Assembly (NCBI GenBank): GCA_012862575.1
Contig: BLSF01000027.1
Span: 310,001-374,000, forward strand
Reading direction: 5' to 3'
From: Parietichytrium sp. I65-24A
Lineage: Eukaryota > Sar > Bigyra > Thraustochytrida > Thraustochytriidae
DNA: 64,000 nucleotides
Shown: positions 9,701 through 62,490 of the stretch, in pieces
Layout of the letters: each line of letters starts with the position of its first letter
How positions within the stretch are numbered: position 1 is the stretch's first letter
The notes under the pieces: model-generated
The model's input: only the letters and a program-made list of their open reading frames with translations
Told to the model about the DNA's origin: nothing
The model's database searches: none
Program-made: the position numbers and the translations under genes

Positions 9701-10368
9701 TCGAGTGAACTGTGAACACTTTTCGTGTTTCGGACATCGGACGGTGAGTGAACCCAGAAGTCTGTGCTGGATGGCGATTTCCATTAGGCTTCAAGACTCC
9801 TTGCGAGAACGTCTGGCAGCCTTTTCCATTTCCAGCCCTGAAACACCAGCGCACAAACCAGTGCCACTCACATGAAGGAACGCAGGCCCACTTCGGAAGA
9901 ACCGGACTCGACATTCGGTTCTCCCGCGGAGAACCAAAGTCTAACTGCCCACTTCAGGAACCCAACCTCCAGGAGTTCTTCGGTTCTTACGTTCTTAGGT
10001 TCTTGCTCCGAGAACCGGTGACAGTTAGGCTATCTCTATCGCACACACAATTCGATGAAACCACTGCTATAGCATTCCTTAGGCGCACCGCTAACGAACC
10101 ATGTAAATTCAAAAAGAACTTTGAAAGCAAAGCAAAACTTTAACTTTGGCAACTCTGCAACTTCGCGAGGACACATAAGCACAAGCTGAGCCCCTAACGC
10201 CACGTAGAGTAACGGCTATAAACAGTGTACGCGAGTACAGCGACCTTATCCGCCCCCATAGTCTTGCGCTACAAAACTAGCTCACCCGGAGACGGCGACT
10301 TTGATTTTGGGATTCCCGAGCGGCAGACCCCAAACGTGAAACGTGAAACGTGAAACGGGAAACGGTAA
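6768..10368. other. Intergenic, 3.6 kb, no supported gene
   Basis: Upstream of both the GPCR (-) and the kinesin (+), so it should hold two promoters. The - strand between about 8675 and 7861 carries three overlapping open frames in different phases, none with a recognisable domain. They could be a decayed gene or chance. Hairpins of GGTTCT/AGAACC lie at 9898-10018. An 8-nt repeat (ACGTGAAA) at 10334-10360 directly precedes the kinesin ATG. Confidence 0.45.
9917..9935. repeat. Perfect 7-bp inverted repeat GGTTCTC/GAGAACC
   Basis: GGTTCTC at 9917-9923 pairs with GAGAACC at 9929-9935 around a CCGCG loop. Further copies of GGTTCTT (9982-9988, 9998-10004) and AGAACC (9898-9903, 10011-10016) surround it. 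The cluster lies 350-470 bp upstream of the kinesin start and may be a regulatory element; its role is unknown. Confidence 0.5.
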
Positions 10369-14313: not shown

Positions 14314-14582
14314 AAGGTCACTGTTTTTTTAGTTCGTAGAGAAATTTCACCAATCTGTTCAGACCAATTTTTCTTCGCAAGGGATTCTACGAGTACGATG
14401 GATAGAAAAGAACACGGGATTTCCCTTTCTCGAGAGAGCCTATGGTTAACAAAGCGGGCTGTATTTTCTTTTTTCCAAAAATTGCTCCGAATAAATATGT
14501 TTTTTTTTTATTTTTAACAGTGATATGTATGCACTGAATTGTTGCATTAGCAAGCGATTGAAGACAATTGCATCGTGTGAGT

Positions 14583-18214: not shown

Positions 18215-20548
18215 TCAGGTCCGCTGCTCCCACATGTCCAAAAATTCGACCAATTCATCGTCAAAGTTTGCTGTTGTGTCGTGCATAAAGTTTGCCTCGA
18301 CTTGGCTCATCTGGTGCATCATTGAAGAAGCAGCAGGGTTTCTTCCTCGATGCGTCAGGTCAGGCTGGCCATGGGCACCCCCGAATTGGCCGGCATGGGG
18401 CTGCGGATGATGCACAGGACCGGCAGAGAGGCGGCGACCTGGGGCTTTAAGTAGATCGCTTTGGCCATTTGCAATATCGTCGTACGCAGCAAGGCCACCA
18501 CCATAGTATTGCTGGCTGCTGAGCCGCCTCGGTTGAGGGGCGCCTTTGGGTTGCATCGTCGGAGCAAAGCTTCTCTGAGACATGGGGTGATCCGGAGAGT
18601 ACTGGTCGAATGGAAGCTGGGAGTCTTCGTACCGGGATGGTGCCGGGAAGTGCTCCACCGGGTGGTGGAAGTGCTGGCCATGCATGCGGGGATCCTGAGA
18701 AGGGTAGTTTGGATTCCGGAAAGGGTAGCCGTTCGGAGGAATGTACGGTCTGTTGGATGGCTTTCCAGCTGGGACGCCGTTGTACATGGCGCTGTGGGCC
18801 GCGGCCGCGGCAGTACTGACAGCTGCAGCATGTGTTGCGTTGCTGTTATTCTTTGCTGCAGGCTTGCCTTTTAATGTTGCTGGCTTGCGGTCTTTTAAAG
18901 ACATATCAGCCTCGCTTGCTTTGGCCGCCGCGTTTGAAATAGATTTGCCTTTTTTGGAAGTTGAAGCGGCGAGAGCTTTTCCTGCGGACCTGCCCACGCT
19001 CCCAGTAATCTCGTTCGCGACGTTCCTCAGATTGGCGGGCTTGGTTCCGGTAATTACAGGGATCTGTGGGCCAGCACCTGCAAGCAATAGCTGTCTTGGA
19101 GAGCCTTCCGCTGGGAGTGCATTGGTTTGTCCACTCGACAGGTGGCGAAACCTTGTCTTGACAGCATTCTTTGTGCGCTTGGGCAAGCTTTTGGCAATGT
19201 CTTCCCATCTGCTACCAAGTTGTTCGTGCAGACGCAAAATTGTCTCGTCTTCTTCTGGCTCCCATTCGCGCTTCTTGGCTCGCATGATTGACTTGTATCT
19301 TGTTTTGACGGCATTCTCGGTCCGCCCTGGAAGCTTGAGCGCGATTTGAGCCCACTTGTTACCCATCGACTCCTGAGCCGTCATGAGAATCTCGTCCTCT
19401 TCGGTTTTCCAAGGGTTCTTGTTAATCTGTGGGTCAAGATTGTAGCACCACCGCTCCCTGCACTGCTTGGCGCTTCGTCCAGGGATGAGATTAGAGATGT
19501 CTCTCCAGCTCCTGTTTGACCCCTCGTGCAGAATTTGGAGTCTGGCGTCCTCCTCGTCGATCCAAGTGCCCTTCTTGTAGTATCCGCGATTGAGTTCCTC
19601 CCAGCGCGATTTGCACTTGTCCAAAGTCCAGCCTTCACATTGCTCCGCAACACTCTCCATCTTCAAGCCGCTGTCGACGAGCGCCTTGAGGTTGAGGTCT
19701 TCCTCCAGTGTCCATTCGTCAATCAGGGTGTTTTGCGAGCGTTTGGTGAGCAGCTGCGGCATGGTGTTCTGCTGCCTCGCTGCAGGTGTTGCGAGACGGG
19801 AATCATCAAAGTTTGTGTTTTCAAGCTTTGGTGCGCTGTGGCTGCGTCTATGTTTCGGGTTGTTTTCAAGTTTTATGGTGGACATTGAAGGAGGGGCGAA
19901 GTTGCCTGTTTTTGTTGGAGGGTGGTGAATAAAGCCCCGAGTCGGCTCAGGCGCTTGGCGATGGGGAGCAAACTCCTCAAAGTCGTCGAGCGGATCTGCG
20001 TCATCATACTTTATGACAGGATTCTGTGAGACACCCATGTCAACATCGACTTCTGAATGATAGAATTGAGATCTCGATCCAGACGACTGAGGGATGCTCA
20101 GCATGGAATCAAGGTAGCTGTCATTGGCAAACGAATTCGCGACTCCAGCGACCACGTTCGCAATGTCGTCGTCGTCGTCGTTCTTGCTAGATACGCTCAC
20201 GCGCCGGGATGCCAGGCGCTGGCTAATAAACGTAATATCATCTTCGTCCTCAATCTGCCGGCTTGAAGGGCGAGGAACTAATCTGCTGAGATCCTGATTG
20301 TTCATGCTCTTGGTGCGCTTCAGGTGCCCGGCGGCTGCTTCGTCAGTGGAGATGGGCTCTGACAGCTCCAGCAGCACGTCGTGCAGGTCCCCGTTCCCCA
20401 CCGAAAACCCGCTAACCGCGCGTTTGTGCGTCCCCCTTCCACGTCCAGCGCGTCTACCTCCTGAGTGTGTCTGAGACTCCACCATCTGATCTTCCACATG
20501 GAACGGCAGGTCCAGCTCCAGCGGCCCGAGCTCTTGCGACGCCATCAT
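18215..20548 (-). CDS. Four-repeat MYB DNA-binding protein
   Basis: Intronless 777-aa nuclear protein. Four MYB/SANT repeats lie in tandem, with first tryptophans at residues 279, 329, 380 and 429: R1 (WTLEEDLNLKALVDSGLKME) is divergent; R2 (GRSAKQCRERW) and R3 (GNKWAQIALKLPGRTENAVK) closely resemble c-MYB R2R3; R4 (GSRWEDIAKSLPKRTKNAVK) follows directly. R2-R4 keep the recognition-helix pattern, so sequence-specific DNA binding is very likely. The N-terminal 275 residues are acidic and Ser-rich with a basic segment (GGRRAGRGRGTHKRA). The C-terminal 300 residues are Pro/His/Gln rich and disordered, as in activators. Role is unknown; 3R and 4R MYBs often control the cell cycle, and SNAPC4 is a 4.5-repeat MYB, but no SNAPc features were recognised. 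Confidence 0.9.
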   Translation of the reverse strand: MMASQELGPLELDLPFHVEDQMVESQTHSGGRRAGRGRGTHKRAVSGFSVGNGDLHDVLLELSEPISTDEAAAGHLKRTKSMNNQDLSRLVPRPSSRQIEDEDDITFISQRLASRRVSVSSKNDDDDDIANVVAGVANSFANDSYLDSMLSIPQSSGSRSQFYHSEVDVDMGVSQNPVIKYDDADPLDDFEEFAPHRQAPEPTRGFIHHPPTKTGNFAPPSMSTIKLENNPKHRRSHSAPKLENTNFDDSRLATPAARQQNTMPQLLTKRSQNTLIDEWTLEEDLNLKALVDSGLKMESVAEQCEGWTLDKCKSRWEELNRGYYKKGTWIDEEDARLQILHEGSNRSWRDISNLIPGRSAKQCRERWCYNLDPQINKNPWKTEEDEILMTAQESMGNKWAQIALKLPGRTENAVKTRYKSIMRAKKREWEPEEDETILRLHEQLGSRWEDIAKSLPKRTKNAVKTRFRHLSSGQTNALPAEGSPRQLLLAGAGPQIPVITGTKPANLRNVANEITGSVGRSAGKALAASTSKKGKSISNAAAKASEADMSLKDRKPATLKGKPAAKNNSNATHAAAVSTAAAAAHSAMYNGVPAGKPSNRPYIPPNGYPFRNPNYPSQDPRMHGQHFHHPVEHFPAPSRYEDSQLPFDQYSPDHPMSQRSFAPTMQPKGAPQPRRLSSQQYYGGGLAAYDDIANGQSDLLKAPGRRLSAGPVHHPQPHAGQFGGAHGQPDLTHRGRNPAASSMMHQMSQVEANFMHDTTANFDDELVEFLDMWEQRT

Positions 20549-20939
20549 TCCGCTGATGCTTTCGCTCTCAATGCAATGCCACTTCCAGCCAGAATCCCTC
20601 GACAGCGAGATCTCTCAGTATGGATATCGTATTTCCCAAGCTCCCCGTTCTCAATATCTGCTCTCTACGCACGTCTCTGTGCCTAATCCGTCCACCTATC
20701 TGCCTCGCCTATTCTCGCCACCTGCGCGCTATCTCCACCTCGAACGCAAAGCTATATATACCCCAGAGCTCTCTTTTCCAAGGTTATGCAATAACTCCAA
20801 GAGACCGGACGTACCGTTTCGTCTCAGAAGCGACTACGTCAGGACTACCTCCCGAACTCTCTCCCTCTGCACTCTTCACTCTTCACTATGCGCCCCGCAA
20901 CGAACAAAAGGAATGCAGCTATTCTCCACACGCCCCGTT

Positions 20940-20943
20940 TACT

Positions 20944-20976
<33 letters not shown>
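20940..20976. repeat. (TC)n microsatellite
   Basis: A run of TC dinucleotides, nearly uninterrupted, followed by an (ACCA)n stretch at 21001-21020. The opposite purine-rich strand arrangement occurs 400 bp downstream. Confidence 0.8.
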
Positions 20977-20977
<1 letters not shown>

Positions 20978-21332
20978 GCACCGCCAATAAGTCAATCAAT
21001 CAACCAACCAACCAACCAACACAGCTGCGACCGTGGTTCTCTGTGCCTGGCCGGCTCTCCTGTCGCCTTCGCGTACGTCTGCGTGTCCCCGCGGACCGGG
21101 AGGAGGTTGAAGAAGGGAAGAGGGTACGCGCCTCCTTCGTTCTTCTCCTTTTGCAGCTCGCGACGTGTGCCTGTGCAGTGACTGACTGGGAGGAGGGTGG
21201 GGCTCCTAAGGGTGGGATAGTGCGTGGTAAGGCTCCGACTGGGAGGGAGAGGTGGGGGCCTAGGCGTGAGTAGCGGAAAGTGGTAGTATGCGAAGGTTAA
21301 TTGTGCTGTGAAAGTTGGTGAGTTGGATGAAA

Positions 21333-21785
21333 AACGAGAGCTGTGAGAGGGAGAGAGAAAGAGAGAGGGAGAGAGAGAGAGAGAGCGGGGGATGAGAGGG
21401 AGACGTGCCCACCCCCTCACGATGTCGGGAGTACCGGCGCGAAGTTGAGTGAGGGCATTGGGTTCAATTCAATGCAATTCGACTTGAAATGTTCAGATTT
21501 GGATCATTTCCTGCGCAGAAAAAGCAGAGGGGCAGACTTCGCAGCGCCTCAGATGTCCTCACAGCGAGCGGCGACTATTTTGAGAAGCCTCATTGAGCCA
21601 AACGCACTCAGAGTCTTCTATTCCTTCCTCTCTCTCTCTGTATCTCTCCCCTCTCGCGCTCTCAAAGTCAGAAGAAAAAAAGAGAAAGAAGAGAGAGCGA
21701 GTGGAAGGAGGGAGAGAGGGAGAGAGAGGGAGGAGAGAGGAGGGAGGGAAGGAGGGAAGGAGTGAGTGAGGGGAAGAGAGAGAGG
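21333..21785. repeat. GA-rich low-complexity tracts
   Basis: Two polypurine blocks, 21333-21385 and 21672-21785, made of GAGA, GGGA and GGAA words, separated by about 290 bp of ordinary sequence that contains a short TC run at 21629-21655. Confidence 0.75.
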
Positions 21786-23663
21786 CAATGGAAAGTGAAA
21801 AATAAAATAAAAGTCTCAAGTCGACCACTGAGAGGGAGCGAGTGAGAGGAGCAGCTACACAAATTACATCACATTCTTTAGATGTCAAAACTACACAGAC
21901 AACAACGTGCGTGCGCTTCGCTACGTGCTTGCAGATAGCTTATTCAATAGGACCTCTTCGATGCTACACTCTAGCTATCCCGTAGCCCCGTACTGGGGAG
22001 ACTAGTGCAGGCCTATCCATGATGGTAGCACTGCCGCTTTGTGAGCAGCAAGTCGCCGTCAATCGTTTGAGATTTCAGTGAAAGATGCAATGCGGAGCAC
22101 AAACCAATTCTCAATGAACGTATCAACAGTAAATTGTAGAGTGGTAACTCAAAAGTTGTGTTCTTCAAGTTTCGAGACAGGTACTCTGAGTACTGCGTAC
22201 TCAAGTAACTTGCTGAGTTGTCTTCCGCCGTCACAGTTCACGTGAGACATAAAAAAATTATCCAAATTCCAAAATTTGTCGAAATCGAACAATCCACAGC
22301 TAGCCCCAACGCTAGGAGGCGGAAGACTTTTATCCTCCGCCCTCTCAAACCTGCCAATAAGACCTGTTTGTAGCCCGAGGGATAGAAAGTCTAGGACTCG
22401 ATAGCGCGAATCTATCGGTGCGGGTATCCATAAATTCACAGTGCATTCGTGAGGGAAGAAGAACACCAAGTGCGCACCTGGCTCTCTCACAACCGAGGAG
22501 AGGAAGCAAAAAGTTCACATTGTAAGGTAGACCTACAGCGCTGCTGTAGTTCTCGACTCGTCTCCTCTCAAGGCTTCTCTGGCCCTTCCGCGCACCCTAC
22601 GCATAGTCTTAGTGGACCGCCCATGTATCCTCTCCCTCCCTCAGTAGGGTGGAAGTGGTGGAAACTTTAGTAGTCCAACACCATCCTACGTCATATATTA
22701 GCACGTCCTAACGATGATAGCGTATATATACAGTATGCCAATAAGCGTAGTTGGCATTCTCGTTTTCATTTTCATCTCTATTCTCTTTCATTTTTGCGCG
22801 CATTTTCAGAACAGAATATCTATTTGACTCAGTGACTCTACCGCACTCATTCGCGCTCTGCCTGAATGACTTCTTGTGAACTGGTACTATTACCCTACAG
22901 CTAAGTAATGTTGTACACGAAAACGCGTTTTTTCTTCAGCTCTTCCTCCTCTATTGAAGAGGTAGATCATGACTAGCGCCTGGCGTTCAGAAGGTGGGCC
23001 TATCTTGTAGATAACCCCGACAGTAGCACTCGCAGCTTGCGTACGGACTCCTGAAAGTGAACGGTGTGGCGTTTTACGTGTGTTGCTTCAGCCTCCTTGT
23101 GAGGGTGAAGGCAATTTTGTTTCAAATTTTCAAATTCGAATTCGGTGTGAGGGATTCTACTATGAGATTTGCCTAGTTCCCCTTACGCTGTTGTACCTGG
23201 TACCAAGAACTAAAACGCACTGCTGGTTTCCCTCCGTTTACTGCTTACTGATGGAAAGGAAGAAAGTAATCTTCCTCACATTTCCTCACATTTCCTCACA
23301 TTCACTATCATTCACTCATGACTCTTGTCCAAGGATGACACCAGGTCAGATCTGGTTATCACCACTTTGCACCTTACAAAAGAGTTTAAACCGTTTACAG
23401 CAGAGTGAAAGCTTCCATGCCACCTGACCAGGGGTGCCGAGAAAATGACTAAATTTGTCAATTTCATTCGACGGAAACGAGACCTCAACGAGAGCGCGAA
23501 ACAAAGGCCAGTTCCGGTTCCTGGTACTGAGTACACAGTACCGACCTGAGCACTGCTCCCGCCTCCTACCTGCGCCGCTCCTTCGCGCATACACGTCCGC
23601 ATCGAAAGACTATCGTGCAAGCTTGCGCGGCGGCGCGAGCGTTTTATTCCTCTCACGCTTTGC

Positions 23664-31027: not shown

Positions 31028-33752
31028 TCAGGGCTTAAATGAGCCACGAGTCGGCGGAGGCGTCGAATAGAGTTTTAGAGCACTTTTGACGGAAAACACT
31101 TCACGCAAAACTGCGAGCCAATGAGCACAGGTTCCTCTTGAGCTGTGCTGGTAGATAGCCGACATTGTGATTCCCTGGCCTGCGTTGCGCTTCTCAATAG
31201 CCAGCCTCTTCATGGTGTGTTCCTCCCACAGAGCGTCGATGCGCTTTGCGACGATTCTGTAGTCCGTGATGGCTTGCGTAAAGTGATGCATGAGAAACAC
31301 GAACACCATAGCTGAGAATACATAGCGAAATATGACCAAGTACAGAAATAGAATTACCATCGTGTACCACGCTCTGAATGGATGATTTGAAATAATGTCG
31401 TACAAGGTGTCACTAGCGATCTCAAGAACGTACGAAAGGCCCTCCGACAATGCGATGAATGTATTGCTGATGGTGCTAAAATGGAGTTCGTAAGCCCCTA
31501 ACATTTGCCACAGTATGACAACAAAAGCCAAAAACACCAATGCAAACACGCAAAGAAGAGTCAGGATTGATATGGTCCCACTTCGCAGTGTCCTGGCAAT
31601 GACAATGCCATTTGATGTGAAGGACAAGCAAAATAGAAGACGATAAAAGAGCACAAGTGCGAGAATACCTTGGAATAGTCGGAAGGTCCACATCTTCCCT
31701 GTCAGCGTTTGGAAAGTGTAGAACCGGTATTGGTTGAGGTTTGCCTCCGACATGAGCTCGTCAAAGTAAGTCTGCAGACTGACTTCCATAGCGACAACAA
31801 CGAAGCAAAGCACGACTATCAGAACGTCCATTGAGGTGCGCCTGTTGAGAAAGAACTCAGAAGGAGAGTCAATCACCATCAAGTAGTACCGCAGATGAAA
31901 ACCCAAGCGAATGATGATGAAAGCTACAAACACCAGCAGCATGATTTGACAGGCAAGAGCACCGTTGCTCGGGAACAACTCGGCAAAGTAAATCTCCGAG
32001 GGCGACCAACTGGCTATAAATTGTCCTCCAAGATCCTGCTCAATGACGTAAGTGCTTGCTCGGACAAATTGCTCGGCATGATTTTGCACGTTGTACTCGA
32101 TTATGATGGCGCTGGTTTGCGAGTCGATCCAGTCTTTGGTCTTCAACGACCCAACTTTATCATCCCACTCTTTGGCAAGAAGCTCTGAAGATTGGTTCTG
32201 CGCCATCCTAAAGCCCGAGCCAACATTGATTATGAAGCCTTCGTTCGGATATGTAGCCAGGGCCCCAAACGTGAAGGCCTGTTGATCCACAACAGTTTCC
32301 CTTTGAAGGGTCTCGAAAGGCGTGTACCTGAACCCTTCAGAGTATGCGACTCCCGGGCTCCCATAAGCATCGAGATTCGCATTTTCGTGGTTATAGTCCG
32401 AGTAGCATACGTCAAACAATTGCTCCACCTTTGGCGGAACTTCGCACGTCACGTTTGGGCGAACCCTTAGCTGCCGAATTCGAACCACACCTAGGAGTTC
32501 TGCCCGATCATCATCAATAAGCCACTTATGGGACCTCAGGAATGATCCCGGCGATGTCACCAATTGGGCCTTGAGGACCTCACCGAGCCAAGCGTAGACT
32601 TCCATAGATGTGGTCATCATGCTATACACCAGAACTACACTACTGTTGCCTTCATCACTATAGACTTGAAAAGGAATATTGGCCGCATCGAGAAATGCGT
32701 TGCTTTTCGGAACTGAAACGAGAATGAGAAAGTACCCAAAAAGGAAAAAGAGCGCCATGATTCCGTAGAACAGAATATCTCTCAATGTGTCCGCAGTTGA
32801 CGCCCGCGAAGATATACTGGTGTGACCCAAGCTCTGCTCCAATTCTGTAATTTGCTCCACAATCTTCTCCAGCTCCTCCCATTCGGGATCCCCACGCATA
32901 GCTTCTTCGCTTTCCCCCATGACAAAGGAATTGTGAAGGCCGTCTGTGGACATTTCTTCCTCCTTTGCCTCTTTATCTTTCATTTCAGCAGGGGTGCCAT
33001 CTTCGCTAAACCTCGACTCTTCAGAGTTTGCGTTCGCAACGTGCAGGAGAGTGATTGTCTGGGGCTCACTGCCGCTGCCTGCAGCAGCGTGGGCGTTGTA
33101 TATGTTTAAAAGCTTTGACTTTTCGCTCAGCAACATGCCATTGTAACTTGCTATGACAGAGTCTAATGGTAATGCCCACGAATTACAAGTCTCCACGAGA
33201 AGGTCGTGCACAGTTGCCGAGTGCGTGAACCGAGTCAAGCAAGTGCGCGCAGAATAGCTCGCCGCGCGTTCAGTTGAATTGACGTCGAGATCCGAGGCGA
33301 GGCGTTCAACCACTTTGAACTCTAGATGCGGAAGAGTCATCAGACTCCCCTGCCGACTGCTCTCGGATTCAGACTCGAGCTGCTCTGCAGCGCTCTGTAC
33401 AAGCTGCGCCACAAGCTTGTATACTGCAGCGCTATCGTCCGTGCCATCTTTTGAATTCCTGCCTCCCGTACGCTCGAGCGCCGCGAGTTCTTCATGAATT
33501 TTGCGCCGCTCTTCTCGGGCCGCCTCACGCTCCAAGTTGAGTCTTTCTAGCGTCGCTCTCTGGCGATAGAGCGTTCAATTTGGCATCACAAGCACACGCG
33601 AATGTCAGTCAGTCAACCTTAGTCCACCGTGTCAGCGTCGCAGCACACCAGTTGTGGCCGGCGCCCGTGCCAATACTTCCAAGACCAAGTCAGCGTGTGC
33701 AACTCACCTCCGCTTTAACTGCCGCCACGAGGGCGTCATTCCCGGCAGCCAT
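31028..33752 (-). CDS. Polycystin-2/TRPP-like cation channel, two exons
   Basis: 858-aa six-span channel of the PKD2 family. I read exon 1 as 33708-33752 (starting MAAGNDALVAAVKAE, donor GTGAGT) and exon 2 as 31028-33559 (acceptor CAG). The long frame itself starts only at TTG, so the first exon supplies the ATG in phase 0. The N-terminal 250 residues are charged, with a short coiled coil. TM1 is near 272-295 (FYGIMALFFLFGYFLILVSV). A large TOP/polycystin extracellular domain follows, with FRYTPFETL and WIDSQTSAIIIEYNVQN, matching the W-L-D..T.A..I.F..YN signature. S2-S6 lie within about 550-770, ending FRYVFSAMVFVFLMHHFTQA. The pore helix region NTFIALSEGLSYVLEI lacks the L-G-D filter of PKD2. 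No EF-hand is seen. Polycystins often act in cilia; that is possible here but inferred. Confidence 0.9.
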
Positions 33753-39320: not shown

Positions 39321-42300
39321 ATGCGCTGTTTGCGGTGGTCGTGGTGTTTGTGGCTGGCGCTGGCGAGCATCCCGTGGTCCGCGTTGGGCGGCAGGGTGTA
39401 CGCGGACGGCGGCAAGGACGAGGACGATGACGCCGCCACGCTGGTGGTGCACCTTGTTCCGCACTCGCAGGTGCCGCGCGGCGGGGACGGCGAGGACGCG
39501 TTGCTGGAACAGTGGGTGGGCCCGGCGCTGAGCAAGGTGGTGGAGCAGCTGGAGCACGACGTGAGCCGGCGGTTCGTGTGGTCGGAGACGGCGTTGTTCC
39601 GGCGCTGGTACGCGGGGCTGGGGCAGGCGGACAAGGCCCGCGTGCGTCGCGCGGTCAAGGATGGCCAGCTGGAGTTCGTGGGCGGCGGCGTGGGCGAGCA
39701 CGACGAGGCGGCGGCGACGGCGGAGGCTGTGCTGGACGAGCTGGCGCTGGGCCACGCGTGGCTGCGGCGGCACATGGGCGTGCGGCCGGTGGTGGCGTGG
39801 CAGGTGGCGGCGGCGGGACACAGCGACGCCACGCCGGCGCTGCTGGCGGCGCTCGGGTACGAGGCGCTGGTGATGGACAAGGTGCACTACAGGGTGCGGC
39901 AGCAGTTCAAGGCGGAGCGGCACCTCGAGTTCGTGTGGAGGGGCGCGGACCTGGGCGCGGGCATGGGGGCCAAGGGCAGCGACTCGTGGCAGGGCGGCGA
40001 CATATTCACGCATGTGCTGTACCAGGGGTTTGCGGCGCCGGAAGGGTTCGACTTTGAGAGCGGCAAGGGGGTGCGGCAGGTGACCAACGCGAAGAGGAGG
40101 GCGGACAGGCTTGTGCAGGGCCTCAGAGAGCGCGCGGCGAGCTACCGCACGCACCATCTGCTCGTACCGTTTGGCGACGAGCTGCGGTTTGTGGACGCGG
40201 ACAAGCAGTTCACTAATATGGAAAAGCTGATGCGGTATATCAACGAAAAGATGACGGACGTGAAGATCAGGTTCTCCACGGCCTCCGAGTACGTCAAGGC
40301 GGTGCGAGAAACGGCTGCTGTGACCGGGCTAGAGTTTCCGCGCTTTAGTGGCGACTTTTTTCCTTACGCGGACGGCAAAGACGGGTACTGGTCGGGTATG
40401 TTTTCAACGCGGCAGGCCCTCAAAGCTGCGTGCCGGGATGTTGAAGACCTCGTCCGCACTGCAGAAGTGTTCTTCGCTCTTGCGAGGGCCAAGGCAACGG
40501 CACTCGGCGACTCGCCGCCCATCAAGGCAATCACCAACGGCCATGTTGACGCCGATACAACCGTGCACCCCCCTGACTGGGGCAATGCCCTCTTTGAGCA
40601 GCTTCAAGTCGCTAGTTGGACATCTGCTCAGCTAAACCACATCCATGCCATAACTGGCGCGGCCAAGGTCCAGGTCGTGAATGAGTTCATTACAAAACTG
40701 CAAACTGCCCAAGCTGCAGCAAATGGTGTACTACAGACCTCTCTGGCGCAGCTCCTAACTAAACGCGAATCGGACTTCAAAGCTTCGGGGCCAAGGGTGC
40801 GGCCCAACCTCACCCCCCTCTCATTCAACCTTGCGGACGAGGTGCTGAGCGAGGACTCCACGGGGGGCTTGCACCATCCGATCATCGTCACGAATCCTGA
40901 CGGGGTGGAGAGAGTCAAGCCAGTGCACATTTACTTGGGCGAGGACTGGGGGGCGCTGAAATTTGTTCAAGTAGTGGATGCCGCCGGGAATCCAGTTCGG
41001 GCTCAGCTGCACCACCAATTATCTCTCGTGAGCAGCAGCACGGGGCGCGGAGCCGGGGGCGGCAAGCCGCGCAAGCGCAAAGCGAGCGGAGACGATTCGG
41101 TGGCGAGCGGGGCGCGTCCGTGGACGAGCAAGATATTTATGTCCTTCCTCGCGAAGGTTCCAGCACTTGGGTACTCGACATATTTCTGTTTTACCACTTC
41201 TGCTAGAGCGCGCATTCGTCAGTCGCACCTCTCCAACGCGGCGACACCAATAACGCAGTTGATGGTGAAAGTACGCAAGGACTCGGGCGCCACCAAGAGC
41301 TCTTTCGATCAACCGCAAAGTGACGATGATGATTATGGCGAAGGGGACGCTCCGAATCTGCTTCAGCAGCAGCAACAACAACAACAGCAGCAGCAGCAAT
41401 CCGTTAAAAGCAAGATCCGAGGGGCAGCTCAGGAAGCAGTTCAAGGCGGTTCTGCAGATGGCCTTGAGACGGTAGAGTCTTCCAACAAATTTGTGGAAAT
41501 AGAAAATGACTTTCTCTTGGTGTCCATCAACACTAAGACCGGACTGTTGCAGGCGATTACTGACAAGCGCACGAAGCGGAAAACTCTTCTTCGGCAGCAA
41601 TTCCTTACTTACCCAGGCCCGAAGAGCGGCCATTACATCTTCAACCCTGGCAAACCCGAGGCAATAGAGATGGGGTCAGGCGGGACAACAGTGGCTGTAC
41701 TCAAGGGGCCCCTCTTCGAGCAGGTACAGGTGTTGAGCTCGAACGGGATCGGGCAAACAATTCGCTTGTGGAAGGCGTCCAAGCCAGGCAGCAAAGTCCC
41801 CGATCTAGATAATGATCGCATCGTGGATGACATCCAAGCGCATTTGGAGGTAAATTATGCGGTGGCTCCGGAGGTTGATCGGGATACTGTCGTACGTTTC
41901 GACACTAATATGGATACCGATGGGGTCTTCTACACGGATAACATGCTTGGGCAGCTTATCAAGCGCTCTTCCCACACAGATGCGCCGCTCGCAAGTATTG
42001 TCTTCCCTGCAAGCTCTACTATAGCGCTCCGAGACACACAAGCCACGGAGGTGACACGGATGGGCCAATTACTGTCTGTGGTCTCAAAGACCCCTTTCGG
42101 GTGCTCAAGCCCTCTGAGCGAGAGCGGCGCTGGGGCTATAGAGATCATGCTTCATCGCAATCATGCCACTGACGATGGTCGAGGGGTGGGGGAAAGTCTC
42201 GGGGACTTTTCTGTCTCTATGGTGTCCACTCTTCTCGCCGTTGACACGCCTTCCGGTATGCTCGCAAGGCTTCCCCACCTTGTCAACCGAGTAAGAAGGC

Positions 42301-43487
42301 CCGGTACCCCATTTTTTGCAGTGGAAAGTGAGCAAGTCGCTCAAATCCTAGGTCGTGAAAATTGGGGATCCAGGTTCTACACGGAGCAGTCGTTCCTCTC
42401 AAAGCCTCTACCTGCCAATTTGTGGCTTCAGACGCTCAAAGCACAAGACAATTTTGGAGATGAAGTCTTGGTGCGATTGTACCGCCAAACGTATGGCAAG
42501 GGGGATTCAGGAAGCGAGACGCCTCAAATTGCGCTGAATAAGATGTTTGATCGAACGCACAAGCTTGTCTCGCAGCAGCAGTGCTCAGTTAGTGGTGGCC
42601 TTATGCTGCCTTCGAAGCCAGGATCCCCGTTCCGAACTTCAAGCTCAGCCTCAAGCCACACGTCATTTGCATACATTTCTCATCCTCTCGGATTCAGCGT
42701 GGTAAATAAAAATTCTGGAGAAGCCTCCAACGGCGAGCTCTCGGTTCCGTCTAATGGGTTTGCTGCCTCTTTAATCAACTTGATGTCTTTACAAGACAGT
42801 GAAATCCCGGTGAGTATGTACGCTGGCAGTGATGGTGAGGGGGTTGGCGATAGCACAAACCTGCAGGGGACGAGTGGAGGCGCAAGTGGCGGAGCAGTAG
42901 AGAGTGGCGCGATGGGTGCCGGATCATCAACTTCATCGTTGTCATCCTCTTCTTCCTCATCCGATTCTGCAAATGCTGGCGGCTCCCAGGGCGACGGACG
43001 TTCCAAAGCAGAGTTGGAGGCGTTGGCGGAGGACTACAGGAGTCAGATGGAAGTGATGCAAAGAAGAGTTGACAAGCACAAAGCACATATCGACCAGTTG
43101 CTTGCCGAGATCCAAAAGTTCGAGAGTGAAGGCAAGAAACATCTAAAAGATGCCACCGTAGAAGACCTGAAGACCGCCGAGCTGGACTTGGAGAGCTCAA
43201 AGTCCAAGCTGAGTGAGCTCCAATCAGATTTGGACGGTGTAGTCAAGCAAATTCAGAAGATCGATCACAATTATCACCCGGAGGCACTTGTGTTCCAAGA
43301 GGAGGTAAAGCTGCGCGAGTTCGAAGCAACTGTTCACGGCGCTGTCGCAGGAGCCGCGGCAATGCTGCTATTTGTAGTAGCAGGGAACTGGGTGTTTTCA
43401 GGTGGCCTTAAGCTCGTGCGAGGCTATGTCCCCATCTCGGTGAGCTGCGGTTCTGGTCCAGAGCTTCCTGTACATAAGACCAACTAG
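39321..43487 (+). CDS. GH38 alpha-mannosidase-family protein, probably catalytically inactive, with coiled coil and C-terminal membrane anchor
   Basis: 1388 aa, no intron. The ATG at 39321 has a strong context (GCCGCCATG) and begins a signal peptide (MRCLRWSWCLWLALASIPWS). Homology to lysosomal-type alpha-mannosidases runs through the body: RRFVWSETALFRRWYAGL, QLEFVGGGVGEHDEAA, FSGDFFPYADGKDGYWSGMF and the C-terminal beta domains. The catalytic sites are altered: HSH-D becomes H48-S-Q-V-P52, the W-Q-I-D-P-F-G-H-S nucleophile motif becomes WQVAAAGHS (160-168, Asp to Ala163), and H-H-D-A becomes H440-I-H-A. All zinc ligands and the nucleophile thus appear lost. Added features are a 12-Gln run (41364-41399), a Ser/Gly-rich linker, a coiled coil (about 1227-1320) and one membrane span near 1336-1363. 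It may be an ER/Golgi glycan-binding or scaffold protein; function unknown. The first 800 bp are extremely GC-rich. Confidence 0.85.
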   Translation: MRCLRWSWCLWLALASIPWSALGGRVYADGGKDEDDDAATLVVHLVPHSQVPRGGDGEDALLEQWVGPALSKVVEQLEHDVSRRFVWSETALFRRWYAGLGQADKARVRRAVKDGQLEFVGGGVGEHDEAAATAEAVLDELALGHAWLRRHMGVRPVVAWQVAAAGHSDATPALLAALGYEALVMDKVHYRVRQQFKAERHLEFVWRGADLGAGMGAKGSDSWQGGDIFTHVLYQGFAAPEGFDFESGKGVRQVTNAKRRADRLVQGLRERAASYRTHHLLVPFGDELRFVDADKQFTNMEKLMRYINEKMTDVKIRFSTASEYVKAVRETAAVTGLEFPRFSGDFFPYADGKDGYWSGMFSTRQALKAACRDVEDLVRTAEVFFALARAKATALGDSPPIKAITNGHVDADTTVHPPDWGNALFEQLQVASWTSAQLNHIHAITGAAKVQVVNEFITKLQTAQAAANGVLQTSLAQLLTKRESDFKASGPRVRPNLTPLSFNLADEVLSEDSTGGLHHPIIVTNPDGVERVKPVHIYLGEDWGALKFVQVVDAAGNPVRAQLHHQLSLVSSSTGRGAGGGKPRKRKASGDDSVASGARPWTSKIFMSFLAKVPALGYSTYFCFTTSARARIRQSHLSNAATPITQLMVKVRKDSGATKSSFDQPQSDDDDYGEGDAPNLLQQQQQQQQQQQQSVKSKIRGAAQEAVQGGSADGLETVESSNKFVEIENDFLLVSINTKTGLLQAITDKRTKRKTLLRQQFLTYPGPKSGHYIFNPGKPEAIEMGSGGTTVAVLKGPLFEQVQVLSSNGIGQTIRLWKASKPGSKVPDLDNDRIVDDIQAHLEVNYAVAPEVDRDTVVRFDTNMDTDGVFYTDNMLGQLIKRSSHTDAPLASIVFPASSTIALRDTQATEVTRMGQLLSVVSKTPFGCSSPLSESGAGAIEIMLHRNHATDDGRGVGESLGDFSVSMVSTLLAVDTPSGMLARLPHLVNRVRRPGTPFFAVESEQVAQILGRENWGSRFYTEQSFLSKPLPANLWLQTLKAQDNFGDEVLVRLYRQTYGKGDSGSETPQIALNKMFDRTHKLVSQQQCSVSGGLMLPSKPGSPFRTSSSASSHTSFAYISHPLGFSVVNKNSGEASNGELSVPSNGFAASLINLMSLQDSEIPVSMYAGSDGEGVGDSTNLQGTSGGASGGAVESGAMGAGSSTSSLSSSSSSSDSANAGGSQGDGRSKAELEALAEDYRSQMEVMQRRVDKHKAHIDQLLAEIQKFESEGKKHLKDATVEDLKTAELDLESSKSKLSELQSDLDGVVKQIQKIDHNYHPEALVFQEEVKLREFEATVHGAVAGAAAMLLFVVAGNWVFSGGLKLVRGYVPISVSCGSGPELPVHKTN

Positions 43488-51687: not shown

Positions 51688-52751
51688 GCCTTCGTTCATG
51701 TATTTTCTTTCACCAACCCTATCCTAAATTAAAATTTGAATAGCTTTGATTTTGACTTTTGAATCCCCATTTAAACACGTCTCCTATATGGCTGCAGAGC
51801 TTTAGGCAAGTGTTTGATCGTGCTTAAACGTTCGCAGGTTCTGCATTTCTATGTTGCCAATACAGCATGTTATTGTAGTTATTGTGACGCGGACAAATTT
51901 CACCGATACGGTTTTTTCACACGAGAGAGAAGAACGAAACGAAACGCATCTACCGTGTCATGAGACCGCAATTTTCGCCCCGTGCTTGTCTCCCCCTTGG
52001 TGAAAGCATGCCCCTTCTCTGAGCTTCTCCACGAAGAGTTATCTTCTTGGCGTACTCCTTTCGACTGAGGAACGACAAAGCTTCTGAAAACCCGCACGAT
52101 GTGCACAGTGTGAATAGTCCGACTCCCATCCTTCAAATCATGAGTCTGTCTTGTCACAGCGCGAAACATCTGGCGGACTCTCCTTCTAAGCTCTATTAGA
52201 GAGGCGCTACTATCGGGGTGTTTCCTTTCGCATACATGGTCTTGCTCGATCAACATCAGTCGGCTTTTTCTCCTTTCAGCATCTCTTCGGGAGTTTCACC
52301 GACCGGTGTCTCTGATCCCTGGCATCAGAATAGTCGGTCGTCGATGATCAGTGCGTACCGGTACAGCATTAACACAGGTGCTACTATAATAGCTTCACAC
52401 CGGTAACATCCTCGTGCACACTGAAAGTCTCTGAACATCTATCTCCCTACTACACATACTACACCATCAATCAATTACTCTCACTCAATGGCCATACTCT
52501 TCAACCCGCTCAACCCGAAAAGAGCAGAGCAGAGCAAAGCAAAGCAAAGCAGAGCTGAGAGTACATACTGGCGGCTCGCCGTCGTCAGAGCAGACACAAA
52601 GCAAGTGAAGCTCGGAACGCAGTCCGTAGTGCGACTCACTGTCAGGGGTGGCGTTGGGCTGTGTTTTGCAACGTCCCAGTTGACCGGGGCTCAATGCTCA
52701 GGGCTTAGGCCACCAGCTTTCGGAACCTGGCTTCACGCGATTGGGGCGGCC
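51688..52751. other. Intergenic, no supported gene
   Basis: Contains a 118-codon ATG frame on the - strand (52256-51900) of charged but unrecognisable sequence, and an AGAGCAAAGC simple repeat at about 52515-52555. The frame of the next gene is open back to an ATG at 52488, which may be an alternative start. Confidence 0.4.
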
Positions 52752-53699
52752 ATGAAGAAGGACCGACAGGCGAAGGGCGGTGCGGCGGATGGCGACTATG
52801 CATCAGGGAATATCTTGAGCAGGTTTTTACAGGATTTGGCCAAGGATTTTGAGAAACTCGGCAGTGATCTCAGCGCGTGCTGCTCGCAGAGTAGAATCGT
52901 TGTCAACCCGCCCAAGACACAGGCTCCCGGGCAAATGCCACCCAGCAAGGGTGTCTTGAAGAAGAATAATCAGGAAGGCGAAGATGTGCGGCAGACGAAA
53001 AGGGAGAGTGGAGAACATGCACACAGCGAGCCGATGCAAAGGCAAGATGCTGACTACGCGTTTATGCGAGCACTGGAGTTGCAAGCCTTGGAAAACTCTG
53101 TCCGAAAGGCGGAGATGCGAAAGAAGCCTTCAGAGCTTAAGATTATTAGATACGACTCCACGGATGACGACCATTCAGTGCTTGGCTCGCCCGCGGAATC
53201 ACGGTCGTCCTTTTTTACGGAAAGTAATTTATCGCCCAAATCATCGGCGTCAAGAATAAAGAGCGCCTTTGTTAACCCACTGCGCATGAATTCAGAGGAG
53301 GACAGGCTTTTGGGCAGAATCGCTCAGGCAGAGAATGAGGGCCCACTTTCGTGTGCAAGGGCTTACGAAGCCCTCGCACTATATTATTATCAAAGCCAAG
53401 GGCGACCGTGGAAAGCCGCCGATTTCTTCTTGGAAGCCTGGCGCTCTTACAAGGCAAATGAAGATAGCAGCCTCGAGGCAGCCTTCCTCTCAACTGCAAT
53501 TAATGCTATGATTAAATCACGCCGAATTGACACTGCAATGCAGATGGCCGAGCGTCGCGCAGAGATCCTGCGCAGCTCCGATCCTGTAAGCGCAAACGAG
53601 GCGCGCAAGTGGGCATTAGACTTAAAGCGTCAGCTCGCCAGGTCCGGCCATGCAAAGGACCTTTTGGTTTCCCTCCGGGTTGACGTGGCGAGCCGCTAA
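52752..53699 (+). CDS. Unknown protein with C-terminal TPR-like helices
   Basis: 315 aa from the ATG at 52752 (GCGGCCATGA); the frame is open to another ATG at 52488, but that part crosses a simple repeat. An early helix (ILSRFLQDLAKDFEKLGSDL) and a disordered Lys/Glu/Ser-rich middle are followed by a helical repeat region from about residue 200: LGRIAQAENEGPLSCARAYE, ALALYYYQSQGRPWKAADFF, AAFLSTAINAMIKSRRIDTA and a final helix. The spacing (A-EAL--YY---G-PWKAADF--EAW) resembles TPR or an NSF-attachment-like helical pair. I do not recognise the family. Function unknown. Confidence 0.7.
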   Translation: MKKDRQAKGGAADGDYASGNILSRFLQDLAKDFEKLGSDLSACCSQSRIVVNPPKTQAPGQMPPSKGVLKKNNQEGEDVRQTKRESGEHAHSEPMQRQDADYAFMRALELQALENSVRKAEMRKKPSELKIIRYDSTDDDHSVLGSPAESRSSFFTESNLSPKSSASRIKSAFVNPLRMNSEEDRLLGRIAQAENEGPLSCARAYEALALYYYQSQGRPWKAADFFLEAWRSYKANEDSSLEAAFLSTAINAMIKSRRIDTAMQMAERRAEILRSSDPVSANEARKWALDLKRQLARSGHAKDLLVSLRVDVASR

Positions 53700-58479: not shown

Positions 58480-59352
58480 ATGGCGCACGTGAGCGTGCTG
58501 CGCTCCTCGGTGTGCGACGCTTTCAAGCGACTGCCGCGCGGGTCGCTGGTGGTGGACGGCACGCTGGGGCTGGGCGGGCACGCAGGCGCCCTGTGCGCAC
58601 AAGGGCTGCGCGTGCTGGGCGTGGACAAGGACGCGACGGCGCTCAGGCTGGCCCGCGAGAGGATGCCGGGGCTCGAGGGATGCGTGCAGGCAGACTTTGC
58701 GCAGCTCCGAGAGCTGCTGGGCGCAGGCGGGGAGTGGAGCAAGGTCGGGAAGGTTGATGGGGTTTTACTGGATCTCGGCGTGTCGTCAATGCAGCTGGAC
58801 GAGGCGCAGAGGGGGTTTAGCTTCAGGTCAAGCGGCCCGCTGGACATGCGGATGGACCCGCTAAACAATGCTCTCACGGCGAGAGAGGTTGTGAACGAAT
58901 GGCCGATCGACGCCGTAGGGGAGATTATCAGGAGGTTTGGCGAGGAGAAGAACTGGAGGAAGATCGTTGAGCGGATTGCCATGGCACGTAGAAAGCAATC
59001 AATCGAGACGACGATGGACCTTGTAAAGGTCTTGGCTCCAGTGCTAGACTGGAAGAATAAGAACGCCTCTCACCCGGCGACACGGACTTTTCAAGCTCTG
59101 CGCATCGCTGTGAATGGGGAATTGACTTCTCTTGGAACCTTTCTGGAGTTTGCCCCTGACATTCTCAATACCGGAGGTGTGCTAGCTATAATCAGTTTTC
59201 ACAGCTTGGAAGACAAGTTGGTGAAGGAGGCGTTTAGAAACTCGTCAAGCTTAGCCCCTGTAAGCAATAAGCCGATCTCCCCGTTGCCGGAGGAGATAGA
59301 GGCCAATCCCCGAGCCAGGAGTGCCAAACTTCGTGTCGCGACTCGTCTGTGA
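58480..59352 (+). CDS. METTL15: RsmH/METTL15-type rRNA N4-cytosine methyltransferase
   Basis: SAM-dependent enzyme that methylates N4 of a cytosine in small-subunit rRNA; in eukaryotes METTL15 acts on the mitochondrial ribosome. 290 aa from the ATG at 58480. Family motifs: HVSVL near the N-terminus, VVDGTLGLGGHAGAL (SAM site), VDKDATALRLARERM, GVLLDLGVSSMQLDEAQRGF, GPLDMRMDP, NEWPIDAVGEIIRRFGEEKN, HPATRTFQALRIAVNGEL and IISFHSLEDKLVKEAF. It ends soon after the last motif, as RsmH does. This ATG leaves no room for a mitochondrial presequence. The frame is open upstream through an RES repeat without an ATG, so a spliced upstream start is possible. The first 300 bp are very GC-rich. Confidence 0.93.
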   Translation: MAHVSVLRSSVCDAFKRLPRGSLVVDGTLGLGGHAGALCAQGLRVLGVDKDATALRLARERMPGLEGCVQADFAQLRELLGAGGEWSKVGKVDGVLLDLGVSSMQLDEAQRGFSFRSSGPLDMRMDPLNNALTAREVVNEWPIDAVGEIIRRFGEEKNWRKIVERIAMARRKQSIETTMDLVKVLAPVLDWKNKNASHPATRTFQALRIAVNGELTSLGTFLEFAPDILNTGGVLAIISFHSLEDKLVKEAFRNSSSLAPVSNKPISPLPEEIEANPRARSAKLRVATRL

Positions 59353-59750: not shown

Positions 59751-62490
59751 TTACTCGAGCCAAACACGTTCCTTCGTGCGTCGGTTCTCGAAATAGTCTA
59801 CATGGAGGTCCTGGCACTTTACCCACTTGTCCTCGCGAAGAATTGCGACAAACTCATCAAAGTTGTCAAATTCGTCAGGAGCAAACTCCCAGCGCAGAGG
59901 ATCTACTTTTCCACCTTTGCGCACTTTGACCTCTGAGGCATCTGTACAAACTTCATTAAGTTTGCCATTGTAGTAGTATTCGTTCCCGGTCAACTTTTTA
60001 CACAGAAAAGCACGTTCGTGAGGTGTTAGACTGGTCGAGAGAAGGTTGTTTATAAATACGCACTATTGCGAATATCTCACTTACTGGATCTATGTGCGGA
60101 GTCCACTCGTCACGTTTCATGACCTTCAGCTCCGTTTTTACCTTTGGCGACCGTCTTCCAGATAATCCGCTCGTCACTGTTCGGACAAACATTTGCAAAA
60201 CACCAGGGGAGCTCACCTGGTCAATGAGAACCCCGCTGTCTCGGGTACATTTGACAAAGCTCCCGCCTTGCGCAGACAATTCCATTGCAATATTTGGGTT
60301 GTTGGTATACAAGTGGATGATCTCGTCGCTCTTTTTTGCAGCAATAAGCGCTCTCACGAGATCATTTGTTTTCAACGCAGGGGCTGCGCCTTCTAGAGCA
60401 ATCTCACTGTGCATGGGGTTAGCGTTTGCAAAGTTTGAAGTGTTTACCCCAGTCATGCCCAAAGCAGGGCCAATATCCATCATACCTTCGCTCTCACGCC
60501 GCTTTTGAACCTTCCTTCTCCGATAAAAGACACAAAACCCAGCAGCGCAGCAGAGCAAGGCCAACAGTGAAAGCAATGGAACCAGCCACAATGCCAATGA
60601 TGAGGATCCAGCATCTCCATCTAGAGAACTTGAGCTTGTGGTTTCAGCGCCTTGGGTGATGGTGGGGCCAGCCGTTTGGCCAGTCCAACTCTCATCTATG
60701 ACCGGGGTCGGAGATTTCGTCGAATCGAGAGAGGTGTTGGTTGGTGCCTTCGTTGGGGACGTTGACGGAGCGTAAAAAATGGCCGTCGTGGGGCTCATAG
60801 ACGACGACGGCGACGCCGATGGCTGGAAGGTAGGCGCAGCTGTTAAAGTTGGCGCTCCGGTTGTTGGGGACGCTGACGGGCCCGAAGTGCGACAACTTTC
60901 GCCATCAAACACGAATCGCTCTGAGAGGGAATTATTTGCAGAGCAAAGGTAGCGAGAATACTGATTGCCCGAAGTACATCGTGCTTGGGAACGATCCCAT
61001 CCACAACCAGGGGCTGATATGCACATGTCGCAAGACTGATACACTTGACATTCCTCGCAGCAGGAGTCAGAGTCGAGATCTCTCCAGCCATCTTGGCACC
61101 CGTCTTTTGCGCCTATCGGCTCGCATCCATACCCGGGGCACCAGCCACACCCGGATGTGCTCGAACACTCCCCGCACGAGGTAATTGCCTTACAAAACCC
61201 AGGGCAGTCATATCCGCAAACATTGATTGAGCTTTCAATGGGTATATCCGTGAGCTCAATATCCTGCAAGAGGGGTTGAAAGTCCCCGAGAAGAATCTGC
61301 TTCAGATTGCGTCTAGAATGGACTTCAAGATCCAAGCAAAAGTCCGTTGATGGAAGCCGACCCAACACCATCCCGTCGGTTCTGAAGGCGTTCCAACGCC
61401 AGACAAACTTGCCCGCCCCGGTTGCTGAGCTCCACTCGGAGCAGTCCACACCAAATGCGATGTTCTTATCTGCCGCAAGGTTCTCTAGGGAGCAAGGGAG
61501 CGTGAATTCGGGCCTAGCTTCGTCGTCCATCTGCAGAATGCTCACATTTTGGCCTTCAAGTCCGATGCTCGATATCCTTAAATCTAGTTCTCCATCATTG
61601 CTGCCGTCTATGTTGTCGATCACAACGACCCAGTACCCTTTGTAATCAGTATCAACCAAGAAAAACATCTCCAAAGCATCGTCTTTGCCATAGCCTGTAT
61701 TGGAACTGGACTCCTGAGGGTAGCTGTACGCATAGAACAGCTCTCCGCCAGACACGGTTTTGCAAGTCCGCTGATCTTCGGTTTGCCCCTTACCCAGCTT
61801 GGCATACCAACCGCCTTGCGGAGGGATATACGAATCTGGCAAAGCTCCGCACACCCCGCCACCAGCCATTTTCGGGTGCCCCTCTGGCAGTGTCGTGATT
61901 GGTTCCAGTACCTTCTTCCTTATTCTGCTCTTTGAGTCCGTCCACCGAACCTCATAACAGAACCCATGTTCCGGTGTCTCATGAAAGCACACGGCAGCCA
62001 CCTCTTCTCCTACCGCATCGCACTCCTTCCGCCTCCACACCGGGACTCCTCCGCTCTTCCTCTCCGACACGACACATGCCCCTGACCCATCCTCGGAATC
62101 GTACGCAAACGCTGCCTTGGCCACTTCCACGTTCATCGCAGCTCCCTCCACCCGCAGCGTCCCGTCCTCTTCCACCGTCGCGTTCACCAGCACCGTCTCC
62201 GCGCCGTCCGCGTCGCGCTCCGCCAGCGTGTGCAGCGCCACCATCTCCGCCGTGGTCCGCGCGCCTGCCACACTGCCGCCATAGTACTCGCACCTGGACT
62301 TTGCCCCGCTCGCGCCGATGTCCGCGCCCGCCAATGCTTTGAAGCACCGACTTTCCGTGCAGTCCCCCCACAGCGTTTGCAGGCTGTCCCCGCCGCGGAC
62401 CAAGATCAGCAGCCACAACCACAGCCACAACCACGCCCCACACGAGGGCGAGGGAGAGGGAGAGGACGCCGCGACAGGTCCGCGGACCAT
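59751..62490 (-). CDS. Type I membrane protein with PSI-like Cys-rich repeats and WW-like cytoplasmic tail, two exons
   Basis: 882 aa; exons 60085-62490 and 59751-59993 (donor GTAAGT, acceptor AAAAAG). The ATG at 62490 precedes a signal peptide whose core is LWLWLWLLILV; the longer frame upstream is low complexity. The ectodomain of about 420 residues is unrecognised. It is followed by a Cys-rich region (about 424-520) with two PSI-like units, CGECSSTSGCGWCPGYGC and CDMCISAPGCGWDRSQARC. A Ser/Pro/Thr stalk (GAPTLTAAPTFQPSASP) of the kind common in stramenopile surface proteins leads to one membrane span (about 630-655, LALWLVPLLSLLALLCCAAG) and a basic stop-transfer RRRKVQKRR. Splicing joins DEWTPHIDP to LTGNEYYYN, recreating a WW-type motif although the second Trp is absent. 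Likely a surface receptor or adhesion protein. Confidence 0.85.

Follow-up and report, generated by a model that had tools for sequence, protein, structure and literature searches.

A candidate membrane-anchored, non-catalytic relative of Golgi-type alpha-mannosidase in Parietichytrium sp. I65-24A

A gene with an intact frame in the analyzed window (a 64,000-nt stretch of contig BLSF01000027.1 of the thraustochytrid Parietichytrium sp. I65-24A) encodes a protein of 1388 amino acids. With moderate confidence, we interpret it as a pseudoenzyme related to Golgi-type alpha-mannosidase that has lost catalysis, is anchored in the membrane, and would use its GH38 module as a docking surface. At the sequence level, this interpretation is based on the conserved GH38 domains, the loss of the zinc site, nucleophile, and acid/base residue, the intact reading frame, and the presence of a stalk followed by a C-terminal membrane span. 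A docking role rather than an enzymatic one is most likely, since the zinc-holding and cutting residues are lost while the body of the enzyme is kept.

Gene structure and domain organization

The coding frame begins with an ATG at 39321 and continues, with no intron required, to a TAG ending at 43487 on the forward strand, as a single open frame whose coordinates, strand, and length were given correctly in the preliminary description of this DNA. Its main features are as follows, with residues of Drosophila Golgi mannosidase II (dGMII; PDB 1hty and others) used as the reference for the pocket.

39321..43487, + strand: open frame of the putatively non-catalytic GH38 protein, 1388 aa (Pfam GH38 N, middle, and C domains)
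39321..39389, + strand: probable signal peptide, residues 1-23, recognized by eye from an Arg, a Trp/Leu-rich core, and small residues (no hydropathy peak there)
39462..39476, + strand: HSQVP, residues 48-52; H90 and D92 of dGMII replaced by Q50 and P52 (alignment)
39525..40370, + strand: GH38 N-terminal (catalytic-fold) domain, residues 69-350 (PF01074, E=1.6e-52)
39798..39824, + strand: WQVAAAGHS, residues 160-168; D204 (zinc ligand and nucleophile) replaced by A163, F206 by A165 (alignment)
40173..40190, + strand: GDELRF, residues 285-290; acid/base D341 replaced by E287, D340 kept as D286 and the Golgi-type Arg343 as R289 (alignment)
40386..40754, + strand: alpha-mannosidase middle domain, residues 356-478 (PF09261, E=4.8e-9)
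40638..40649, + strand: HIHA, residues 440-443; zinc ligand H471 replaced by I441, D472 by H442 (alignment)
41364..41399, + strand: poly-Gln run of 12 Q, residues 682-693 (7 CAG and 5 CAA codons)
41499..42182, + strand: GH38 C-terminal domain, residues 727-954 (PF07748, E=3.5e-22); Y727 and R876 of dGMII kept as Y772 and R954
42828..42980, + strand: Ser/Gly-rich linker, about residues 1170-1220 (17 S and 12 G among 51 residues)
43005..43259, + strand: predicted coiled-coil-like helical stalk, residues 1229-1313 (single-sequence AlphaFold2 and best heptad window, the latter taken without a control)
43341..43397, + strand: C-terminal transmembrane span, residues 1341-1359 (hydropathy 1.97), followed by a 29-residue tail

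The stop-free frame containing the gene comprises 1418 codons, and in 30 random sequences of 64 kb with matching first-order composition no such frame exceeded 310; on the strength of these lengths and of the Pfam domains, origin as a random long frame was rejected. No stops are seen in the 1388-aa frame, versus approximately 7 in a simulation in which 5% of bases were randomly changed. Third-position GC amounts to 0.94-0.96 in codons 1-200 and to 0.54 in the last block. The GH38 N-terminal, middle, and C-terminal domains follow each other in order, scoring 179, 36.6, and 80.1 bits against curated Pfam cut-offs of 25, 31.1, and 25, respectively.

The poly-Gln run, Ser/Gly linker, coiled coil, and C-terminal span noticed previously are all present, the coiled coil as a modeled element. 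Its predicted helices (residues 1229-1277 and 1280-1313) have block pLDDT values of 72-84, with three blocks at 58-64, in an AlphaFold2 model whose mean pLDDT is 61.5 and pTM 0.40, and matches of the stalk to known families are weak (E of 0.066 and above, below cut-offs). The model of residues 36-500, built in the same single-sequence manner, has a mean pLDDT of 37.8, too low for use. Only two hydropathy peaks exceed 1.2, namely 1.97 at residues 1341-1359 and 1.21 at residues 956-974. The protein contains one N-glycosylation sequon and seven Cys, few for a large luminal protein.

Golgi alpha-mannosidase II is a type II membrane protein with an N-terminal anchor. The diatom Man II/GnT II is likewise described as type II in PMC12507850. 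In the 1388-aa protein, by contrast, the stalk and the only strong hydrophobic span lie at the C-terminal end.

Loss of the catalytic pocket

The preliminary description had named three altered motifs, and their places proved exact: aligned with GH38 structures, the four changed positions all fall in zinc-ligand columns, so that every zinc ligand of dGMII is replaced (H90 by Q50, D92 by P52, D204 by A163, and H471 by I441). The acid/base D341 corresponds to E287, and the pocket is further changed by the replacements W95 to G55, F206 to A165, R228 to K187, and D472 to H442, on all of which that description was silent. The nucleophile site A163-A164-A165 offers no substitute carboxylate. In the column of His273, a residue located between the holding and anchor sites, the protein has E241, in a gapped and uncertain part of the alignment. 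The protein resembles Golgi alpha-mannosidase II in its GH38 domains and in the retained equivalents of D340, R343, W415, H470, Y727, and R876, and differs from it in lacking the zinc ligands, nucleophile, acid/base, W95, F206, R228, and D472.

Residues identical to dGMII occupy 4 of 15 pocket positions in the 1388-aa protein, versus 11 in the paralog from contig 22 of the same genome and 13 in the jack bean enzyme, whereas identity elsewhere in the aligned N-terminal region is 128/380, 105/387, and 114/374, respectively. The pocket is therefore conserved no better than the rest in the 1388-aa protein (Fisher p of 0.78) and strongly so in the paralog (0.0004) and jack bean (2e-5); the pockets of the 1388-aa protein and the paralog differ with a p of 0.027. 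In leave-one-out comparisons, five of five catalytic columns were lost each time in the 1388-aa protein, versus none in each intact protein. Nevertheless, it keeps 53 of the 87 positions that do not vary among dGMII, the jack bean enzyme, and the paralog. With all zinc ligands and the acid/base gone and so many invariant positions kept, the earlier proposal of a non-catalytic protein is well supported by the alignments, and by its sequence the protein is a pseudoglycosidase, i.e., a glycosidase fold without the conserved catalytic residues. Glycan binding, scaffolding, and quality control, the roles suggested in the preliminary description, would be candidate functions. Simple mannose binding in the old pocket appears less likely, since the sugar-stacking W95, the hydroxyl-holding D472, and the pocket R228 are lost, although the equivalents of Y727, R876, H470, W415, and R343 are kept.

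Glycosidase folds that lack catalysis and are used for binding include YKL-39 (GH18), the klotho proteins (GH1), and CyRPA (GH33), as described in PMC7828330, all of them from GH families other than that of the 1388-aa protein. No GH38 pseudoenzyme was seen in the searched literature (titles and abstract openings). A GH38 module free of its zinc site provides a means to ask what the rest of the fold can bind.

Ancestry and genomic context

The best PDB match of the 1388-aa protein is dGMII (205-208 bits), with the D204A mutant (3bud) scoring 208.1 bits and the chains with wild-type motifs 205.0-205.9 bits. Outside the pocket, identity is likewise highest to dGMII among the sequences compared. 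The Golgi-type Arg343, a holding-site residue of Golgi mannosidase II according to PMC13204073, is kept as R289, and the other four sequences have Q or S in this position. Lysosomal alpha-mannosidases (bovine, 1o7d; jack bean, 6b9o; the contig 22 paralog) share the GH38 fold, and a Laman-like Pfam match of the 1388-aa protein (residues 607-622) stays below its cut-off (20.9 bits versus 27). Unlike the 1388-aa protein, they have intact zinc motifs, and tree tests reject grouping it with them (p-AU about 5e-5). The lysosomal-type stretches of the preliminary description were thus not borne out as especially lysosomal, being nearest to Golgi mannosidase II. A recent duplication of the lysosomal gene of this genome was also rejected, based on 24-27% identity and the tree tests.

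MAN2B2, the core-specific lysosomal alpha-mannosidase, was represented by a provisional sequence, which would share stretches such as FVWRG and IFTH with the 1388-aa protein and, unlike it, to have intact catalytic motifs. Grouping with dGMII gave the best tree (p-AU 0.886), followed by grouping with this MAN2B2 sequence (0.154), a value with which a MAN2B2-type origin is compatible. These trees were built from five or six sequences and have no outgroup, and their branches are long (that of the 1388-aa protein measures about 1.1 amino-acid changes per site), so that a place nearest to dGMII looks the same in them as a split outside the Golgi as well as the lysosomal group. Taken together, the sequence comparisons make it probable that the protein stems from the Golgi (mannosidase II) part of GH38.

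A second GH38 gene, the search for which had been suggested in the preliminary description, was found on contig 22; it is of the lysosomal type, has intact motifs, and is the only other GH38 gene found in the genome. Accordingly, the genome search found no intact Golgi mannosidase II. GnT-I-like and GH47 (class I mannosidase) genes are present in the genome, in which no separate GnT-II gene and no PfaA-type fatty-acid synthase above the family cut-off were found. As the 1388-aa protein is the only Golgi-side GH38 found, the cell would not use a canonical GH38 enzyme for the mannosidase II step. The change appears to have affected the sole gene of the Golgi type found, while GnT-I-like genes persist in the genome, a combination that predicts hybrid-type, not fully trimmed, N-glycans. 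No orthologs of the 1388-aa protein were found in the viral contigs, genome contigs, and plasmids searched, in prokaryote, virus, and plasmid collections that say little on protists. Queries were the protein and three alignments for viral contigs, two alignments for genome contigs, and the protein for plasmids, the automatically chosen patterns being few and short, and part of the alignment-based searches was confirmed with the paralog or dGMII rather than with the 1388-aa protein.

Possible role and alternative explanations

In the favored reading as a docking pseudoenzyme, the signal peptide would direct the protein into the secretory pathway, where it would adopt type I membrane topology, its GH38 module facing the lumen. 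The stalk may mediate oligomerization, and the zinc-free module could serve as a platform on which glycoprotein cargo or other glycan-processing enzymes dock. A more specific version, unlikely though conceivable, is that the sole Golgi-type mannosidase gene now encodes a lectin or cargo receptor that is anchored in the membrane and borne on a coiled-coil stalk. The lineage would then have given up mannosidase II trimming, and the scaffold, with its retained Arg343, would recognize the GnT-I product in its untrimmed state or the carriers of that product. A rival reading, to which we likewise assign a small probability, dispenses with glycan binding: the GH38 surface and stalk would keep GnT-I-like enzymes or class I mannosidases together in a Golgi complex. 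The coiled-coil-like stalk, the membrane span, and the presence of GnT-I-like and GH47 genes are consistent with such a partner protein; the weak family matches of the stalk argue against it.

The docking pseudoenzyme has also to be weighed against a relict in decay, in which loss of the mannosidase II to GnT-II branch made the enzyme needless and its active site eroded, aided by drift toward high GC in the 5' part of the gene. The missing separate GnT-II gene and the pocket conserved no more than the rest agree with decay, as does the high third-position GC of the first 200 codons, where the replacements of H by Q, D by P, W by G, D by A, and F by A raise or keep GC. However, GC falls where R228 became K (codon 187, itself one of the GC-rich codons) and where H471 became I, and it does not rise where D472 became H. 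These changes, the retained invariant positions, and the absence of stops in 1388 codons despite deep divergence, as compared with the simulation, make decay unlikely. Still more doubtful is a repurposed catalyst, in which H48, H167, D286, E287, H440, and H442, retained or shifted, would make up a new metal or acid site with remaining activity on a glycan. These residues do lie in or beside the motif columns, and the equivalents of Y727, R876, R343, and W415 are kept, but the four ligands, nucleophile, and stacking Trp were all lost together and the alanine triplet at the nucleophile site carries no carboxylate. Finally, the idea that faulty sequencing or assembly altered an otherwise ordinary alpha-mannosidase gene deserves almost no credence: the differences from dGMII at 11 of the 15 pocket positions lie in several separate places of an unbroken frame with good flanking alignment, and nothing was found in its favor.

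A DNA search of the genome for a second allele or copy yielded none beyond the one copy of the gene. The other genome matches listed for it are to the poly-Gln repeat only, and repeats of this kind are common across the genome.

Reading frame and active site

39321-43487, + strand: frame of the probable GH38 pseudoenzyme, 1388 residues, uninterrupted
31028-33340, - strand: polycystin-domain frame, 770 aa, by Pfam

The stop-free frame of the GH38 pseudoenzyme spans 1418 codons, against a maximum of 310 in random controls (30 sequences of 64 kb, first-order make-up as in the window). In the profile search, the N-terminal, middle, and C-terminal GH38 domains of Pfam all scored above curated cut-offs, whereas a short Laman-like match reached 20.9 of the 27 bits required. 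The 42.5 Mb genome yielded a single copy of the gene; the remaining DNA matches listed sit on its poly-Gln repeat.

The active site was compared with Drosophila Golgi mannosidase II (dGMII), whose numbering is used. Residue roles follow PMC13204073, apart from those of W415 and H470 and that of D204 as a zinc ligand, which are general background. Replacement of the zinc ligands, proposed in the preliminary description, was borne out in all four columns of the alignment (H90, D92, D204, and H471 correspond to Q50, P52, A163, and I441), and the acid/base D341 is replaced by E287. Further pocket changes are W95 to G55, F206 to A165, R228 to K187, and D472 to H442, whereas Y727 and R876 are retained as Y772 and R954 in the C-terminal domain. 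Together with the retained GH38 domains, the loss of the zinc ligands and the acid/base supports the proposed non-catalytic protein, as judged from sequence.

Among the 15 pocket positions that we listed, four are identical to dGMII (D340, R343, W415, and H470), compared with 11/15 in the paralogue (the other GH38 gene, on contig 22), 13/15 in jack bean, 8/11 in the bovine fragment, and 12/15 in a provisional piece of the human MAN2B2 sequence. At the other aligned positions the ranking turns around: identity to dGMII is highest in the GH38 pseudoenzyme (128/380), compared with 105/387 in the paralogue, 114/374 in jack bean, 72/260 in the bovine fragment, and 119/389 in the provisional MAN2B2 piece. 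By these counts the pocket of the GH38 pseudoenzyme is on a par in conservation with its remaining positions (Fisher, p 0.78), whereas the pocket stands out in the paralogue (p 0.0004) and in jack bean (p 2e-5); the direct comparison with the paralogue pocket, based on few positions, gives p 0.027. Of the 87 positions at which dGMII, jack bean, and the paralogue all agree, the GH38 pseudoenzyme retains 53. Across four leave-one-out sets it retains 55/82, 45/69, 56/93, and 53/87 and always loses all five catalytic columns (90, 92, 204, 341, and 471), whereas the intact protein left out retains 61 positions in every set, with all five of these columns preserved.

Ancestry and the second GH38 gene

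A second, intact GH38 gene, suggested as a check, is indeed present. It is the sole other one found in the genome (contig 22; intact motifs PHTHDD, WQIDPFGH, GFDF, and HHDG), and its coding sequence can be read in four exons separated by GT-AG introns. By its sequence it is of lysosomal type, matching jack bean over dGMII in both the last-exon frame (354 vs. 77 bits) and an N-terminal part of 350 residues (345 vs. 141 bits).

The lysosomal type first assigned to the GH38 pseudoenzyme is not supported. Among solved structures it is closest to dGMII chains (205-208 bits), with jack bean next (198.5-199.5 bits), and blastp with its N-terminal part ranks dGMII (195 bits) before jack bean (181), the provisional MAN2B2 piece (164), the paralogue (128), and the bovine fragment (115). 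Both tested topologies placing it among lysosomal types were rejected (p-AU about 5e-5; 404 columns, five sequences). With the MAN2B2 piece added (four topologies), p-AU was 0.886 for placement with dGMII, 0.154 with MAN2B2, 0.0235 for dGMII plus MAN2B2 with the GH38 pseudoenzyme apart, and 3e-5 with the lysosomal paralogue. Arg343, a Golgi-type holding residue, is present, whereas the other four sequences compared have S or Q. A non-lysosomal identity is thus well supported; a Golgi origin is likely and not proven, because the trees are small, with long branches and no outgroup, and include one sequence and nine dGMII residues that are provisional and one sequence a residue short.

Added parts, constraint, and possible role

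The C-terminal membrane span held up as a single strong hydrophobic span (residues 1341-1359) after a stretch predicted to be helical (1229-1313; single-sequence model). The proposed coiled coil agrees with this predicted helical stretch (block pLDDT 72-84, three blocks 58-64, whole-model mean 61.5) and with its best heptad window (42 residues, hydrophobic 0.83 at a/d vs. 0.10 elsewhere, without a control). An N-terminal signal peptide is likely, by eye. The product probably resides in the secretory pathway, anchored at its C-terminal end. The poly-Gln run (41364-41399) is probably not special, since this CAG/CAA repeat, of a common kind, matches more than 20 other genome places.

It is improbable that the gene is an eroding relict. 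Third-position GC falls from 0.94-0.96 at its 5' end to 0.54 in the last block, and GC-driven drift could have aided several changes within the first 200 codons, but R228 to K, also in that region, and the changes at 441-442 are unexplained by it. With 5% of sites changed at random, about 7 in-frame stops arise and none of 500 runs stays free of them, which makes an old gene without constraint unlikely. By quarters, third-position GC declines from 0.90 to 0.55 in 39321-43487, 0.90 to 0.58 in 58480-59352, 0.76 to 0.50 in 59998-62490 (- strand), and 0.75 to 0.58 in 10369-14313; among the 17 frames listed in the window, others are flat.

We infer that the GH38 pseudoenzyme may bind a glycan or protein ligand, because inactive glycosidases elsewhere serve as binding proteins, according to PMC7828330. 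Plain mannose binding in the old pocket is made less likely by the loss of W95, R228, and D472. That it merely holds glycan enzymes, binding no glycan itself, seems unlikely, if slightly less so than decay.

N-glycan pathway genes and other frames

The genome contains a UGGT domain and three GH47 loci, one closer to EDEM1 (210.6 bits) than to ER mannosidase I (about 163). Two loci carry GnT-I-family genes; at one of them a single frame of about 1102 aa encodes two tandem GnT-I-like (GT13) domains after an N-terminal hydrophobic stretch (763-3861 of L023, a stretch of contig 13). Two of the GnT-I-like domains were compared, and both score higher with GnT-I than with POMGNT1 (117.6 vs. 105.1 bits; 160.1 vs. 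115.8 for the first L023 domain). A separate GnT-II was not found in an exon-by-exon search, which a split gene could escape; the sole match (24.2 bits, 40 with neighbours, cut-off 27) lies within a GnT-I-like gene scoring 164.9 with the GnT-I model. This contrasts with the diatom P. tricornutum, where, according to PMC12507850, GnT-II is fused to a Man II domain that shares 49% identity with the Drosophila enzyme, like fusions being predicted in other diatoms. If no other enzyme performs the step, the GnT-I product would presumably stay untrimmed in this organism.

The 403-aa frame at 52488-53699 had no Pfam match at E 0.001. On contig 66 of the assembly, a 5583-aa frame (8562-22499) with repeated below-cut-off matches to the same PfaA profile stretches probably represents a giant gene resembling polyketide or fatty-acid synthases.
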